From positions 1-64,000 of the forward strand of contig JAJSAL010000140.1 in the NCBI GenBank assembly GCA_024274705.1: a stretch of DNA of 64,000 nt, written 5' to 3'. This document shows positions 37,089 through 44,009 of this stretch, piece by piece. The notes beneath the pieces are model-generated. The model ran no database searches. It saw nothing but the letters and a program-made list of their open reading frames with translations, and was not told where the DNA came from. Each line of letters opens with the position of its first letter. The stretch's first letter is position 1. The position numbers and the translations under genes were made by a program. This stretch comes from Spirochaetota bacterium. GTDB lineage: Bacteria > Spirochaetota > Spirochaetia > SPDA01 > JAJSAL01.

Positions 37089-39584
37089 ATGGCCACCGAT
37101 ATGCAAGACGAATTTGGACAAGAACTGAAGGAAAAAAATCCAATGGATTCGAACACAACTGCAGATTCAGAACTCGAAGAATACGGAGTCTGGGTAAAAG
37201 CCGGCCCGGAAGACCTGGTAGAAGCTGAGTCTGACGGCGACGAATTCAGCCTTCAGGATCTCGAAGTCGACAACTCAATGGAAGAACCAGTTTTAAGTGA
37301 AGAAGAAGAAGAACTCCTGGGTGATCTGGAAGGGGACACCTTTTCAGCCGAAGAAGATGTGTTTCCTGCTGAAGATGTACCTGATATTGAAGATTCTGTA
37401 ACCGAAGACCTCTCTACAGATTCGGCCGTCGATGGTCTCGTCGAACCTGAGGAACCTGAGGAACCTGAGGAACCTGAGGAACCTGAGGAACCTGAGGATA
37501 GATCAGAAAAGGCTGAACTCAACATTGATATCGACAGCGAACTTGATGAAATTGGTTCAGCAGAAGAAGCTGAGGAAAAGATTACCGAAGACCTTTCTGA
37601 TTTTGAGTTCGATCTCGAAGATGAACCTGTTTCTGCGGAAGCTGAAAGTCCTGATGCTGAAAAATCCTCCGAGGAGGAACTCATTGAAATACCTCTCGAT
37701 TTTGCCGATGATGTGGAAGAGTCTGAACTTGAAGATGTGGAAGAGTCTGAACTTGAAGATGTGGAAGAAGAGGAATTTGATCTCTCGTTTCAATCTGAAA
37801 CGGAAAAAAACCTGGAAAATATTGAAGAAATCGGTGACGATGTCACATTTGACGATAATACTCTACCCTCTGCTGAAGATAATCTTGACAATATCAACCT
37901 TGATGAAATCCAGCAATCCGACTTCGGTGAAGAGCTTCCGGAACTGGAACTCGACGAGGGAGGGGTTTTAGGTGACCAACAAACCGTTTCTTCCGAGGAT
38001 GCCGGATCCACTTCTATTCTTCTTAAGATCGAGCAGGAACTCTTAGCGATTAAGAATGAACTCGCCTCGTTGAAAAGGGAACTTACAACTTTGCGGATTT
38101 CCGAACGCGAAGAACCTTCTGTTCCCCAAGCTGATGAAACCGGCGGCTTTTTTGATGAGGAAGAAGATGAAACGATAGCTCTTACAGGCGATGAACTCGA
38201 TAACATCCTTAACACAGCTGAATTCACTGATGAAGTCGGTGAGGCAACGGATATTGCAGATGAAGATCTCACTCCTGAGGAAGGGATCGAAGAAGCTGAT
38301 GAAACCTTGACCGGTGACGAACTCAACAACATTCTGAACACTGCTGATTTCACAGAACAGGAGGGTGAGGACACCCTTTCCGTTGAAGATGAGGGGGAAC
38401 AGCCTGTAGAATCCCTGGATGAAGATCAAATATCCCTTAAAGAGGATATCATTTCTTTAGATGAAACACCCGATAGTTTCGATCTGGTACCACCGGTTGA
38501 GGATCTTACGATCGAGACACCCCTGGAGTCCGAACAAGAATCCTCTTCTGAAGTTATTACTGAAATGGATGAAGTATCTGTTCCTGTTGCCGGTAATGAA
38601 TTAATAGATGAAATAGAAGTAGACATCCCTTCAAGTGGTGCGAGAGTACCTGATGCCGACGAAACTATTTTTGCTGAAGAATCTGTTGATGACCTGGACC
38701 TCATTTCAGAACACGAAGAATCCCTACTCGACGAAGAAACCGTCGGGAAAGAAACGTTGGAAGATCTTTCTGAACTCCCGGAATTGCCATCGGAAGAAAT
38801 GAGTCATGATCATGACGAACTTGCTTTGGAAGAACCTCTGGATGAAGAAATCGGTCTTGAAGAAATCAGTCCTGAAGAAGAAACGGAGCCTGAAGAACTC
38901 TCCCTGGAAACTGATGAACTGACCCTCGATGAGGTACCTGTCCCGGAGGAGAGTGCTCTCGAAACGGAAGAACCGGCCATAGAGGATGAACCGGTTATAG
39001 AAGAGATTTCTCTGGAACCGGATGATCTTGCCCTTGAGGAAGCAGCCGCTGACCTGCCGGCCGAGGACCTTTCCACGGAAGAACTGACCCTCGATGAGGT
39101 ACCTGTCCCGGAGGAAAGTGCTCTCGAAACGGAAGAACCGGCCATAGAGGATGAACCGGTTATAGAAGAGATTTCTCTGGAACCGGATGATCTTGCCCTT
39201 GAGGAAGCAGCCGCTGACCTGCCGGCTGAGGACCTTTCCACGGAAGAACTGACCCTCGATGAGGCTCCTGCAGTTGAAGAGGATTCTGAACTTCCTGAAA
39301 TAGAAGAATCAGCAGCCGAAGACCTTATTGAAATGGATGAAGCTCCATTAGTGGAAAATGAGGTCGAAGAGGTAAGTGAAGAAGAGCTGCCGCAGGTTGA
39401 ACCTTCCGGGGAAGAAAGCTTCACCGAAATTCCGGATACTCTTAAATCTGAACTGAAATCAGTCCTTACTTATATGGACCAGCTTCTCGAAGCATTACCG
39501 GAAGACAAGATCCAGGAATTTGCCCGGTCAGAACATTTTGAAGTGTATAAAAAATTGTTCGAAGAACTGGAGTTGAACGTATAA
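37089..39584 (+). CDS. hyperacidic, repeat-rich cytoplasmic protein
   Basis: The 831-residue protein is dominated by E, D, L, S and P and is probably disordered and strongly negative. It has no signal peptide. Repeats are nested: a six-fold GAACCTGAG run (EEP) at 37443-37496, a 24-bp duplication near 37715, two LTGDELNNILNTA-type copies, and a 55-residue tandem duplication at 38916-39245. A short coiled coil (LLKIEQELLAIKNELASLKREL) lies near residue 310. The only folded-looking end is the C-terminal 50 residues (LKSELKSVLTYMDQLLEALPEDKIQEFA). Its stop overlaps the ATG of the next gene (TAATG), so the two are coupled. The function is unknown. Serine-rich minus-strand ORFs here are shadows. 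Confidence 0.85.
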   Translation: MATDMQDEFGQELKEKNPMDSNTTADSELEEYGVWVKAGPEDLVEAESDGDEFSLQDLEVDNSMEEPVLSEEEEELLGDLEGDTFSAEEDVFPAEDVPDIEDSVTEDLSTDSAVDGLVEPEEPEEPEEPEEPEEPEDRSEKAELNIDIDSELDEIGSAEEAEEKITEDLSDFEFDLEDEPVSAEAESPDAEKSSEEELIEIPLDFADDVEESELEDVEESELEDVEEEEFDLSFQSETEKNLENIEEIGDDVTFDDNTLPSAEDNLDNINLDEIQQSDFGEELPELELDEGGVLGDQQTVSSEDAGSTSILLKIEQELLAIKNELASLKRELTTLRISEREEPSVPQADETGGFFDEEEDETIALTGDELDNILNTAEFTDEVGEATDIADEDLTPEEGIEEADETLTGDELNNILNTADFTEQEGEDTLSVEDEGEQPVESLDEDQISLKEDIISLDETPDSFDLVPPVEDLTIETPLESEQESSSEVITEMDEVSVPVAGNELIDEIEVDIPSSGARVPDADETIFAEESVDDLDLISEHEESLLDEETVGKETLEDLSELPELPSEEMSHDHDELALEEPLDEEIGLEEISPEEETEPEELSLETDELTLDEVPVPEESALETEEPAIEDEPVIEEISLEPDDLALEEAAADLPAEDLSTEELTLDEVPVPEESALETEEPAIEDEPVIEEISLEPDDLALEEAAADLPAEDLSTEELTLDEAPAVEEDSELPEIEESAAEDLIEMDEAPLVENEVEEVSEEELPQVEPSGEESFTEIPDTLKSELKSVLTYMDQLLEALPEDKIQEFARSEHFEVYKKLFEELELNV
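37443..37496 (+). repeat. six perfect copies of a 9-bp repeat
   Basis: GAACCTGAG is repeated six times and encodes (EPE)n. The unit is a multiple of three, so copy number changes would lengthen or shorten the protein without breaking the frame. Confidence 0.95.
38916..39245 (+). repeat. 165-bp tandem duplication inside the acidic gene
   Basis: The segment starting GAACTGACCCTCGATGAG recurs at 38916, 39081 and (partial) 39246, exactly 165 bp apart. The two full copies differ at only a couple of positions, so the duplication is recent or kept uniform by recombination. Confidence 0.95.
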
Positions 39585-40737
39585 TGGGGCTTCTCAACAA
39601 GGCAAGATATTCCCTCTTAACGGAGAATAAACAGAGTTTTTTCGAAAAACCTAGCGATCTGGAAAGTAACGCACCTGTTACAGAAAAAAAAAAGTCCTTA
39701 ACGGCAGCGTAGATACAAACGCTAGTTGGCTTACTCCCCAGCTTTTATCTGAAGATGAATCTACTCTATTGCCTCAGGAAAAAGTGACTATACAGCCTGT
39801 TATGAGTGAATCTGCTTATCCTGCTGAAAAAACAGCTTCTTCCGTACTATCCCGCCTGGAAGAACTTAAAGCAGGCATAGAAACTCCTGGTAGAGTGTTT
39901 TCCCTGTTGAGGGATGAAATCTCCTTTGAAAAAGGTTCGCTTCTTTTAGAAGACACCGCACTCGCAACTTATATCCCATGGGCGTTGACCGGATATGATA
40001 AAACGACCGCTCACAGATTACGTTTTCCTACCGAACTATTGGAATCTTTGTTCGTAGATGAAAAACTTTATCCTAGAATTCTTGATAAAAGCGATACAGT
40101 CAATCTTAAGCAGTACTTTTCTATCAGGGAATACGGTCTCCTTGAAAGAATACTTTTACATCCCTTCTCGCATGACGGAATAATGGTGGGCTTTCTTCTT
40201 ATCACAGAAACAATCAATACACCTAATCTCGAAGAACTCAAAACTGCACTGCAGAAGCTTTCTCCTCATGTTTCCGCTATCCTCTTCAAATCGAGAAAAG
40301 AGATACTTCATAATATACCTTCAGTATCAGGAAAGACGGATAATAACTCAGTGAAAGAAATCGTAGACGAGATCAGGCTATGCAGGGAACAGGGCAAACA
40401 TACCTTACTGCTTACATTTTCCATCGACAGAGCAGTTGAACGCCTCCACGATAAAATCAAGGATGCTGATCCGTTTCGATTTCGTCAGGATATTTACGCA
40501 ATACTGTCCACGATGATTTCTGACTCCGGAGGTGTCTGGCGTATTAATTCCGGCACCCTGCTCCTTCTTTTTTCGGGAACAGCTATTCATGATGAAAAAC
40601 TTATTATACATCAACTGACTGTTTCCATGAACGATCTTTTTCAGGAAGGTATCAACATGTCTCAATTCATCGGCGGTGTGTTAAAAGATCCACAGGAAGA
40701 TACTCACGTTTATTCATTTATTGAATCCATTCAGTGA
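39584..40737 (+). CDS. GAF-like protein expressed across a -1 frameshift at a poly-A run
   Basis: ATG 39584 (overlapping the TAA of the acidic gene) opens a frame that stops after 42 codons at 39710-39712. The main frame, given in the track from TTG 39769, has no ATG, GTG or Shine-Dalgarno upstream. The two are joined at GAAAAAAAAAAGTCC: zero-frame codons AAA AAG within A_AAA_AAG allow a -1 slip that continues GTC CTT AAC GGC into the long frame, giving a protein of about 384 residues. The middle resembles a GAF domain (GRVFSLLRDEISFEKGSLLLED, LLHPFSHDGIMVGFLLITE). The C-terminal 130 residues look like a degenerate GGDEF-type fold (VWRINSGTLLLLFSG). If no shift occurs the gene is dead. Confidence 0.7.
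39684..39694 (+). other. A10 run with dnaX-type slippery heptamer A_AAA_AAG
   Basis: The heptamer at 39688-39694 is in the correct phase for -1 frameshifting. A 5-bp stem AGCGT/ACGCT with an 8-nt loop (39706-39723) lies 11 nt downstream. The run could also slip during transcription or change length during replication. Confidence 0.7.
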
Positions 40738-40746
40738 TCAACCCTT

Positions 40747-42345
40747 ATGATGACGATCGAGACTGCGCGTTCGGGAGATCTCTATGCTAAATCAGGAGCT
40801 CTCCATATTCACTCTTCTTTTAACCCTAAAAAGGAGGCTGAAAAATTTATTGATTCACACTGTACCGGTTCATCATCGGTTTTTCTTGTCCTTGGTCCCG
40901 GGCTTTCCTACATACAACCCCTTTTAAACGTTAGATTCCCTCATTCCCGGGTAATTTCTTTGTTTTACCACACCCTTTTTTACCAGCGCTTCGATGTAAA
41001 CGATCAGAATTCCTGGTTTCCGGAATTTAAAGAGACCTTACCTGAATTCCTCCGAAATCGTATTCCTGAATACGATTCTGACGGATTGTGCGTTGTTGAA
41101 TGGGCCCCAAGCGCCCGTATTTTTCCAAAAGTTTCCAGGTATGTAAACTCGGTAATTCATCAGCTTCTTCGGGAATACAGCGGTAGTATGGCAGTTACCC
41201 GGACATTCGGTAAGAAATGGTTTCTCAATACCATCACCAACTATATTGCTATCGATCAGTATGCAGAGATACGAAAAGCAGACCATCCAGTTGTTATCGC
41301 TGCATCCGGCCCCAGCCTTGAGCAGAGTTTAACGTTGTTACGTAAGTATCGTAAGAAATATTATCTCTGGGCTTTGCCTTCATCCCTCAACTTCCTCACA
41401 ACCGCCGGTATTTCACCTGATATGATCATATCTACGGATCCAGGTTTTTACGCAGGATACCATCTTGTTTCTCTGGAAAAGTACTCGGATGTACCTGTTG
41501 CGATGCCGTTAACATCTCATCCCCTGCCCCGTTCTGCTGCAAACTGTGTAATCCCCCTTCACCAGCATACATGGATTGAAAAGCTCTTTCTTCCTTCCCT
41601 GTCACTTCCCTTCCTCAATGCTGGTTCTCACGGTACCGTTGCCGGAACTGCTCTCGAAATGACCCGGTACGCTTTTCCTCCTGCAGTATTATTTACCGGC
41701 CTCGATCTTTGTTTTTTTGATATCCAGGAACATGTGAAACCTCATACCTTTGATACGATTATAGCTGCATCTGCAAACCGAATGAGTTCGATAGAAACGT
41801 TATATACCTCCAGGGCGATCCAGCTGGCACCTAAACTACACATTCAGGAACATATCCGCACCTCGATTTCTCTTGAGACATATACAGGCTGGTTCCGTGA
41901 TCATATCAAGGAATACCCTGTACCCTGTTACCGGATCCTCCCTTCCCCTGTCAGAATAGACGGATTTGGTTCGCTCTTGGCGATAGATATTCCCGGATTT
42001 TTTTCAGCATGGAATAATAACCCCGGGGAACCTTACTATTTGAAAAAGAATACTTTTCCCCGGGATGAACGTAAAAAGCGTATAACTTGTTTTTTAACCC
42101 ACAATATACATACATTGGATAAATTCTTAAGCGCAACCAGAAAAAACGGCCTGCCGCCGGAAGGAGAAAGAACGTCTGTATTCGAACTGCTCTACCAACT
42201 CGATTTACCATCACTTCAAGCTGTCTATAAAAAGGTGCGAAAGGAGCAGGCATGGGATACCTCAACGCTGACTCTTCTCTTTACTTTGCTCGAGGATACT
42301 ATTAGGTTTCTCAGGAACATGAATCAGATCGCCGGATCGCTATGA
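40747..42345 (+). CDS. DUF115/Maf-like protein 1
   Basis: The 532-residue protein belongs to the DUF115 (MptE-like, Maf) family: a Rossmann-like core with VIAASGPSLEQSLTLLRKY near residue 185, DMIISTDPGF and the late NAGSHGTVAGTALEMTRYAF. Maf proteins of other flagellated bacteria transfer nonulosonic acids to flagellin. In a spirochaete the candidate substrate is FlaB or a surface protein. It follows the GAF-like gene by 9 bp and overlaps the second DUF115 gene by 4 bp (ATGA). Confidence 0.82.
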   Translation: MMTIETARSGDLYAKSGALHIHSSFNPKKEAEKFIDSHCTGSSSVFLVLGPGLSYIQPLLNVRFPHSRVISLFYHTLFYQRFDVNDQNSWFPEFKETLPEFLRNRIPEYDSDGLCVVEWAPSARIFPKVSRYVNSVIHQLLREYSGSMAVTRTFGKKWFLNTITNYIAIDQYAEIRKADHPVVIAASGPSLEQSLTLLRKYRKKYYLWALPSSLNFLTTAGISPDMIISTDPGFYAGYHLVSLEKYSDVPVAMPLTSHPLPRSAANCVIPLHQHTWIEKLFLPSLSLPFLNAGSHGTVAGTALEMTRYAFPPAVLFTGLDLCFFDIQEHVKPHTFDTIIAASANRMSSIETLYTSRAIQLAPKLHIQEHIRTSISLETYTGWFRDHIKEYPVPCYRILPSPVRIDGFGSLLAIDIPGFFSAWNNNPGEPYYLKKNTFPRDERKKRITCFLTHNIHTLDKFLSATRKNGLPPEGERTSVFELLYQLDLPSLQAVYKKVRKEQAWDTSTLTLLFTLLEDTIRFLRNMNQIAGSL

Positions 42346-44009
42346 CTGATATGAATTTTCTCGAAAGAAATCTTCTCGCTTTATCATCACACAATACCAG
42401 ACTTTCATTTCAGATTGGTACTGCCAAAAAAAGTCCTGGCCTGGAAATCGTCACCTCGAGATCAGGCCACATGGTGCCGGTATTCATACAGGGTAACAGG
42501 AAACTCCCTCTCCATTCGACCTTCGATCCGAAGCGTGAAGGCAACAGGTATGCCAGGATGTTTCCTACCGGGGGTTTTCTGGTTTTTCTCGGTTTTGGAG
42601 CTGGATATCATATCCTTCCATTTCTCGAACGTAACTACGTTTCTAACATCATTGTTATCGACAAAGATATTGGAATGTTCAAAACAGTACTTGAGGCGAT
42701 AGATCTCCGGTTCTTATGCCTGGACCGCAGAGTGACGTTTCTCATCGATTACACAACTGTACAGATTCAGGATTATATTCTTTCAAACTATTTCCCGGCA
42801 GTATGCGGAGATCTTCAGACCCTTCATCTTCTATCCAGGCTTCAAACCGAAGAAGACTACTTTACCGATGTTATGACGGTTATTAAACAGACGATAAACA
42901 CTATTTCTGATGACTATACAGTCCAGGTGCATTTCGGAAAAAAATGGTTTAAAAACACAATTCTCAATCTACCGCGAGCCCAACTGGCAACAACCGCACT
43001 TCCTCCGGTAAAAAAGGCGATTGTAACCGGTGCAGGACCTTCTCTCGAAACACAGATTCCAATGATTAGGAAGGAAAGATCATCCTCGTGTCTCATTGCA
43101 ACGGATACCTCTCTTCCGGCTTTGCTGACATATGACATAAAACCTGACCTGGTCATTTCGATCGACTGTCAGCACATCTCGTATCACCATTTTTTATCCG
43201 GGTACCCTCGGGATATCCCGCTTGTCCTTGATCTGGCTTCACCGCCGGGGCTTACTCGCCTTACGGAAAAACTGGTATTTTTTACCAGTGGTCATCCCTT
43301 GTCTCGATATGTTAACGCCAACTGGAGGAAATTCCCCTTTATCGATACTTCCGGAGGAAATGTGAGCCATGCAGCGGTTTCTCTCGCAGACAGTCTTGGA
43401 GCGCATGAAATAACATTATTCGGCGCAGATTTTTCATTCCCCGAAGGAAAATCCTACTCCCGGGGAACATATATCTATCCCTATTTCAGGATTAAAGAAT
43501 TCCGGAATATCCCTCTTGAAAGTCAGTTTTTCTCCTTTCTTCTCAGGAATAAAAATATCGAAAAGGAGTATGACCAGGATATGATACGTTACACGACCAA
43601 ACCGATGATTAGTTACAAGGAACGGCTGGAATCTGCAGCAGCCTCTTTATCCGGCAGAATTATCCATTCCCAGGGTAAAGGGGTTCCTCTGAACTTTCCC
43701 TCAAAAACACCGGACCGGAGGAATACAAAAGCGTTTGCTTCTCTTTTCGCTGCAGGTTCCCCTAAAAGTGACTGGAGGGTTTTTCTTGATCAGTACAACC
43801 GTCAGCTTCATAACCTGCCTGAACCGTCTGAACCTTTTACATCCTATTTTTACGAACTGGAAGCAAGGGAACGCGATCTCTGGACAACACTATTCCCCGC
43901 TGTAGCAACCTTCAGGCAGGAATACGTAAACGACGGCATTGACGGCATTAAACTGTTAAAGCAGGTTAAAAGGTGGAGCACAGCACTTTTGGGACCTGTT
44001 ACTACTTAG
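42342..44009 (+). CDS. DUF115/Maf-like protein 2
   Basis: The 555-residue paralogue of the upstream protein shares the core motifs: AIVTGAGPSLETQIPMIRKE near residue 225, DLVISIDCQH and GNVSHAAVSLADSLGAHEITLFGADFSF. It starts at ATG 42342 within the stop of its partner, so the two are made together and may form a heteromer or act on two sites. It is probably a flagellin or surface glycosylation enzyme. The 3' end overlaps the convergent MEMO gene by 8 bp. Confidence 0.83.
   Translation: MTDMNFLERNLLALSSHNTRLSFQIGTAKKSPGLEIVTSRSGHMVPVFIQGNRKLPLHSTFDPKREGNRYARMFPTGGFLVFLGFGAGYHILPFLERNYVSNIIVIDKDIGMFKTVLEAIDLRFLCLDRRVTFLIDYTTVQIQDYILSNYFPAVCGDLQTLHLLSRLQTEEDYFTDVMTVIKQTINTISDDYTVQVHFGKKWFKNTILNLPRAQLATTALPPVKKAIVTGAGPSLETQIPMIRKERSSSCLIATDTSLPALLTYDIKPDLVISIDCQHISYHHFLSGYPRDIPLVLDLASPPGLTRLTEKLVFFTSGHPLSRYVNANWRKFPFIDTSGGNVSHAAVSLADSLGAHEITLFGADFSFPEGKSYSRGTYIYPYFRIKEFRNIPLESQFFSFLLRNKNIEKEYDQDMIRYTTKPMISYKERLESAAASLSGRIIHSQGKGVPLNFPSKTPDRRNTKAFASLFAAGSPKSDWRVFLDQYNRQLHNLPEPSEPFTSYFYELEARERDLWTTLFPAVATFRQEYVNDGIDGIKLLKQVKRWSTALLGPVTT

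Follow-up and report, generated by a model that had tools for sequence, protein, structure and literature searches.

A frame break at a tract of exactly ten A's in a sensor-like gene of Spirochaetia

In the window, by which we mean the whole stretch of 64,000 nucleotides analysed here, a run of exactly ten A's splits a sensor-like gene over two reading frames. An A-run at the same place breaks the frame of homologous genes in 16 family-level groups of the class Spirochaetia. The pattern argues very strongly that recoding of one kind or another, by the polymerase or by the ribosome, joins the two frames. As to the mechanism, the evidence leans towards slippage of RNA polymerase, which would probably leave one extra A in some of the mRNAs. 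The features of the locus in the window are the following:

37089-39584, plus strand: acidic gene, 831 aa, an open reading frame (ORF) upstream of the split gene
39584-39712, plus strand: 0-frame ORF of 42 aa from the ORF list, MGLLNKARYSLLTENKQSFFEKPSDLESNAPVTEKKKSLTAA*, with the start, an N-terminal segment carrying an MGLLxKA motif, the tract and an early stop
39684-39693, plus strand: A10 slippery tract, read from the sequence as G + A10 + G at 39683-39694
39670-40737, plus strand: -1-frame ORF with the main domain, 355 aa, open without internal stop and under purifying selection in close homologue pairs
39838-40731, plus strand: predicted GAF and degenerate GGDEF-like domain (profile match, structure model, Foldseek against the PDB)
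40747-42345, plus strand: first DUF115 / MptE-like gene (PF01973, E 2.4e-18)
42342-44009, plus strand: second DUF115 / MptE-like gene (PF01973, E 9.1e-32)

The original prediction, made from the letters of the window, described a start codon coupled to the acidic gene whose frame is lost after 42 codons, and this is what we find: the upstream gene's stop and the ATG at 39584 overlap in TAATG, and the 0 frame ends at the stop codon 39710-39712. Across the tract this frame reads GAA AAA AAA AAG, and the dnaX-type heptamer A_AAA_AAG (39688-39694) is in phase with it, as had been stated. The real domain does lie in the -1 frame, in which no ATG, GTG or TTG occurs 3' of the tract until the TTG at 39769.

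The encoded domain (303 modelled residues, mean pLDDT 93.5, pTM 0.90) is predicted to combine a GAF fold with a degenerate GGDEF-like fold C-terminal to it, in keeping with its earlier description as GAF-like, and is named by no Pfam or NCBIfam family. Foldseek matches in the PDB include the GAF domain of Lcd1 (E 2.3e-6), DcsBis (E 1.1e-5) and PelD (E 1.8e-5), and the high rmsd of the multi-domain superpositions indicates that the relative orientation of the domains differs. PelD and DcsBis are GAF-GGDEF proteins in which a GAF fold likewise precedes a GGDEF-like one. However, they share 11-15% identity with the window protein, which is known from a predicted structure and whose translation lacks the catalytic GG(D/E)EF motif, the matching hairpin being GVWRINSGTLLLLF.

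The neighbouring genes are of interest in their own right. The C-terminus of the acidic protein (encoded at about 39420-39581) is strongly conserved throughout the class and marks the locus; its last 55 residues, which include YMDQLLExLPEEKIxEFAxSEHFxVYKKLFEELGL, show 61-75% identity in other families and match no Pfam or NCBIfam family. Within the same gene, at 38905-39260, lies a long internal repeat that is almost exact (EELTLDEVPVPEESALETEEPAIEDEPVIEEISLEPDDLALEEAAADLPAEDLST and its copy). Downstream, the two genes that had been read as DUF115 genes both match PF01973, and the second also resembles the flagellin modification protein PseD, in a weak match far under the curated cut-off (NF050051, E 6.9e-17). 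A relative with a genome of 1.14 Mb (G076) shows the same order, with the GAF-like gene preceded by a large ORF and followed by two more genes, the last of them again with a weak match to PseD. It is from these gene neighbours only that a part in modifying flagella or the cell surface might be suggested.

Of 59 other relatives, 26 yielded homologues of the -1-frame protein, with identities of 19-35%, and a profile built from 24 of those sequences matched in 144 of 395 genomes of the class; a scan of the genome contigs with the single protein gave no match. Loci were also traced by way of the conserved terminus of the acidic gene. In this way 132 usable Spirochaetia loci were oriented, the start was set 3' of the conserved upstream-gene end, and the frame of the start was compared with that of the domain. 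At 43 loci the frame is broken with an intervening A-run, always by -1. The gene is in frame with a tract (A10-A13) at 13 loci and is one single in-frame ORF with no tract at 68. A +1 offset was seen once, at a locus that has no tract and contains N's, and never together with a tract; for the remaining seven loci, two of them with A10, no start could be assigned. The frame-broken loci come mostly from metagenome assemblies, range in GC from 39 to 69% and fall into 16 family-level groups (our family labels are group codes), a safer count than that of the loci, which are not independent events. By a quick tree of the domain, the locus has switched between the three states at least 16 times, a figure of which only the order of magnitude counts since the tree has several long branches.

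The A-run length in relatives, which the original prediction proposed to compare, is exactly A10 in 40 of the 43 frame-broken loci, with one case each of A9, A11 and A12. The tract occupies all three codon phases, even inside one family (f30), and the base that follows it is G, C or T. At least one GLL or GLLxK-type motif precedes it in all 43 N-terminal segments and at least two in 20. Two single-contig genomes of family f10 (L149 and L150, 2.47 and 2.56 Mb) carry A10 at the same place in frame, in a context that looks GC-rich. In the complete chromosome of Brucepastera parasyntrophica (L222, 2620-3500) an A9 near the start of the GAF-like gene comes with a -1 offset, and the frame breaks a second time further along, so that the gene may be decaying or contain a sequence error.

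To place the tract against its background, A-tracts in genomes were counted by pattern search. The genome of the window (4.59 Mb) has about ten distinct tracts of at least ten A's. In two GC-rich relatives (G014 and G187) the A10 of the split gene is the sole A10 of the genome, and a third (G039) has two, one in the split gene and one in a LytR-CpsA-Psr (LCP) gene. From local base composition, the number of A10 tracts expected per start-to-domain interval has a median of about 4e-5 and a maximum of 0.03. By these counts, the recurrence of the tract at one place in 16 families is far above chance. At loci with more than 55% GC only 42% of lysine codons are AAA, yet all ten A's are retained. Since the tract is found in all three codon phases, it seems to be its length, and not the A_AAA_AAG heptamer, that is under selection.

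Both halves of the gene are also under purifying selection. For the domain, translated in the -1 frame, 12 of 14 close frame-broken pairs have a dN/dS of 0.04-0.22 (one further pair gave 0.51 and one was not computable); for the N-terminal segment it is 0.11-0.33 in the 0 frame, again in 12 of 14 close pairs, and near or above 1 over 32 codons in two pairs of family f40. Purifying selection on both halves indicates that both are translated and selected. It also speaks against a recent pseudogene or an assembly or sequencing error in the homopolymer. Homopolymers are error-prone and the genome of the window is an assembly of 198 contigs, but the identical A10 and offset recur in dozens of independently assembled genomes, and public records of the same loci (labelled Spirochaetales, Spirochaetaceae and Spirochaetia) show them too. 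Thus, assembly error, which the original prediction had named as its refutation, is excluded for the pattern, and we regard error or recent decay as a practically negligible explanation.

A phase-variable switch, in which DNA polymerase slippage would alter the A-count between cells and turn the gene on or off, had also been considered. Long A-runs are indeed unstable in DNA, and in-frame homologues with A10-A13 exist. However, phase variation would leave both off-frames and varied lengths, whereas the tract-bearing offset is -1 in all frame-broken loci and +1 in none (16 families to 0), and the length is fixed at ten in nearly all of them. Moreover, most lineages would be OFF by consensus, yet the domain is under purifying selection. 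Such a switch is therefore very unlikely.

Could the two frames be two separate genes, the second translated from an internal start or by re-initiation? In the window, potential starts do precede the domain in the -1 frame, namely the TTG at 39769 and, further on, an ATG at 39802. Across the survey, though, in 25 of the 43 frame-broken loci the domain frame offers no ATG, GTG or TTG ahead of the domain core, so that re-initiation was rejected for want of a common start; ATG is missing there in 36, and a start with a Shine-Dalgarno core occurs in only one. The 68 single in-frame fusions likewise tell against separate genes, which would in addition leave the tract unexplained, and we give this arrangement hardly any credence.

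What remains is the choice between ribosome and polymerase, the two forms of recoding that the original prediction had put forward. Recoding itself is strongly supported; what is conserved, however, is not the pairing of dnaX-type heptamer and hairpin that accompanied the proposal. In programmed -1 ribosomal frameshifting, tRNA-Lys would re-pair one base back on A_AAA_AAA or A_AAA_AAG. The constant direction of the shift in all 43 loci favours this, and every locus has a heptamer in the correct phase, as A10 contains A_AAA_AAA in every phase, a point that also counts against the polymerase. In E. coli reporters, efficiency rose from 10% at seven A's to 40% at nine and 63% at eleven in an assay that does not separate polymerase from ribosome (PMC3711429). 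However, the usual stimulators are lacking. The small hairpin proposed 3' of the junction is not above chance in the window (z = -0.29 against shuffled sequence), and the 43 loci have a mean z of -0.15 with two below -2, stem-loops being scored and pseudoknots lying outside the model. An upstream Shine-Dalgarno core of five or more occurs at one of the 43, against a rate of 4% in shuffled sequence. The long A-run might itself offset the missing stimulators; still, all three phases keep the length of ten where A7 would be enough, and AAG is not preferred in the phase where it would matter (G follows the tract in 20 of 26 phase-1 loci and in 10 of 17 in other phases). On balance, ribosomal frameshifting is the less likely explanation, if a possible one.

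The lack of structure, the use of all three phases and the variable next base instead favour polymerase slippage, in which we place moderate confidence. A length of ten in any phase fits the RNA-DNA hybrid of bacterial RNA polymerase, which measures 9-10 bp (PMC5009743), and slippage at A9-A11 sites reaches roughly 15-55% with no stimulators (PMC4256274). Antonov et al. took a constant shift direction as a sign of ribosomal frameshifting and noted that slippage orthologues may differ in direction (PMC3711429); here the direction does not differ, all frame-broken loci being -1. Two other hallmarks are present: a homopolymer of at least nine A/T is conserved at the junction of all 43 frame-broken loci, and both ORFs look functional, with dN/dS below 0.25 in most pairs, and are joined in some homologues (81 in frame, 13 of them with the tract). 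Because in-frame versions with the tract also exist, differing direction is a supporting and not a defining sign. In addition, one-A insertion is reported to be the commonest slippage product at Thermus dnaX (PMC5009743), and if this is general a constant direction would be expected of the polymerase too. Against polymerase slippage, A9 tracts number about 70 in the genome of the window, and of 30 that were inspected most fall within open frames; slippage at A9 would thus be tolerable here, or the polymerase may slip little at A9.

In polymerase slippage as we picture it, RNA polymerase would slip while the RNA-DNA hybrid consists entirely of A-T pairs. The fraction of mRNAs with one extra A would then give a full-length protein with the N-terminal segment and the GAF/GGDEF-like domain, and the remaining mRNAs a short peptide that ends soon 3' of the tract. 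The trait under selection may be a fixed proportion between the long and the short product, or else a dose kept low in comparison with the acidic and DUF115 genes to which this gene is coupled. Such a trait would explain why tracts occur both in frame, where slippage would yield the short form, and out of frame, where it would yield the long one.

The sensor-like gene may have company. A second A10 outside the window (G000, contig C82, 26197-26206, minus strand; L168 / L256) likewise stands where the frame changes by -1: a 396-aa ORF ends directly at the tract and is followed by a LytR-CpsA-Psr domain (PF03816, E 9.3e-30). Among 41 LCP loci (40 homologous loci and the one from the genome of the window), 15 are frame-broken at A9 or A10, all by -1 and often with a stop one base 3' of the tract, and ten keep the frame with A10-A12; a further locus, apparently -1 but lacking a tract, is doubtful. 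Seven homologues (L258, L262, L274, L283, L291, L292 and L296) have exactly A10 but in frame, and slippage there would give a short product. As read from these sequences, the LCP gene is unrelated to the GAF-like gene and carries the same arrangement in the same clade. With the device in two unrelated genes, a class-wide reading is worth testing, and we tentatively propose that Spirochaetia reuse the exactly ten-A tract to set a long/short ratio in at least two unrelated genes, possibly in response to nucleotide pools.

The phenomenon itself is already known from Thermus dnaX, Shigella mxiE and Citrobacter tssM, and IS elements make up the largest known group that relies on A-tract slippage (PMC1088944). 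We found no earlier report for the GAF-like or LCP gene families, and none of transcriptional slippage in spirochaetes, the latter being weak evidence since most subscription journals lay outside the search. The cellular cases of A-tract slippage that we found in the literature concern single genes in few species. Here, an A10 is fixed at one spot of a cellular gene in 16 family-level groups, sometimes as the sole A10 of the genome, which makes this gene well suited to studies of the purpose that a slippage ratio serves. In practical terms, annotation likely truncates, splits or labels as pseudo both the sensor-like gene and the LCP gene in many spirochaetes.

Compared with known systems, the heptamer A_AAA_AAG of the Escherichia coli dnaX -1 ribosomal frameshift is the one found in phase in the window, but a stem-loop and a Shine-Dalgarno element stimulate the shift in E. 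coli dnaX, and neither was found at the spirochaete loci. In Shigella flexneri mxiE two ORFs likewise need one extra nucleotide in a fraction of the mRNAs (PMC1088944); in contrast to the spirochaete case, the run is one of U's in the mRNA, in an unrelated gene of one system. Closer is Thermus thermophilus dnaX, where transcriptional slippage at A9, a run of similar length, gives two products of a cellular gene with no stimulator (PMC1088944, PMC5009743). Its protein is unrelated, and its run is in frame, so that slippage gives the short product, whereas the spirochaete run lies close to the N-terminus and, as a rule, out of frame. Similarly, the poly-A tract of tssM is out of frame in one of the genes Citrobacter rodentium tssM1 and Yersinia pseudotuberculosis tssM3 and in frame in the other, as among the spirochaetes, with slippage giving the long form from the out-of-frame tract and the short form from the in-frame one (PMC4256274). 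The tssM case comprises only two genes, with proof at the RNA level, whereas the spirochaete site, known from sequence, extends over 16 family-level groups.
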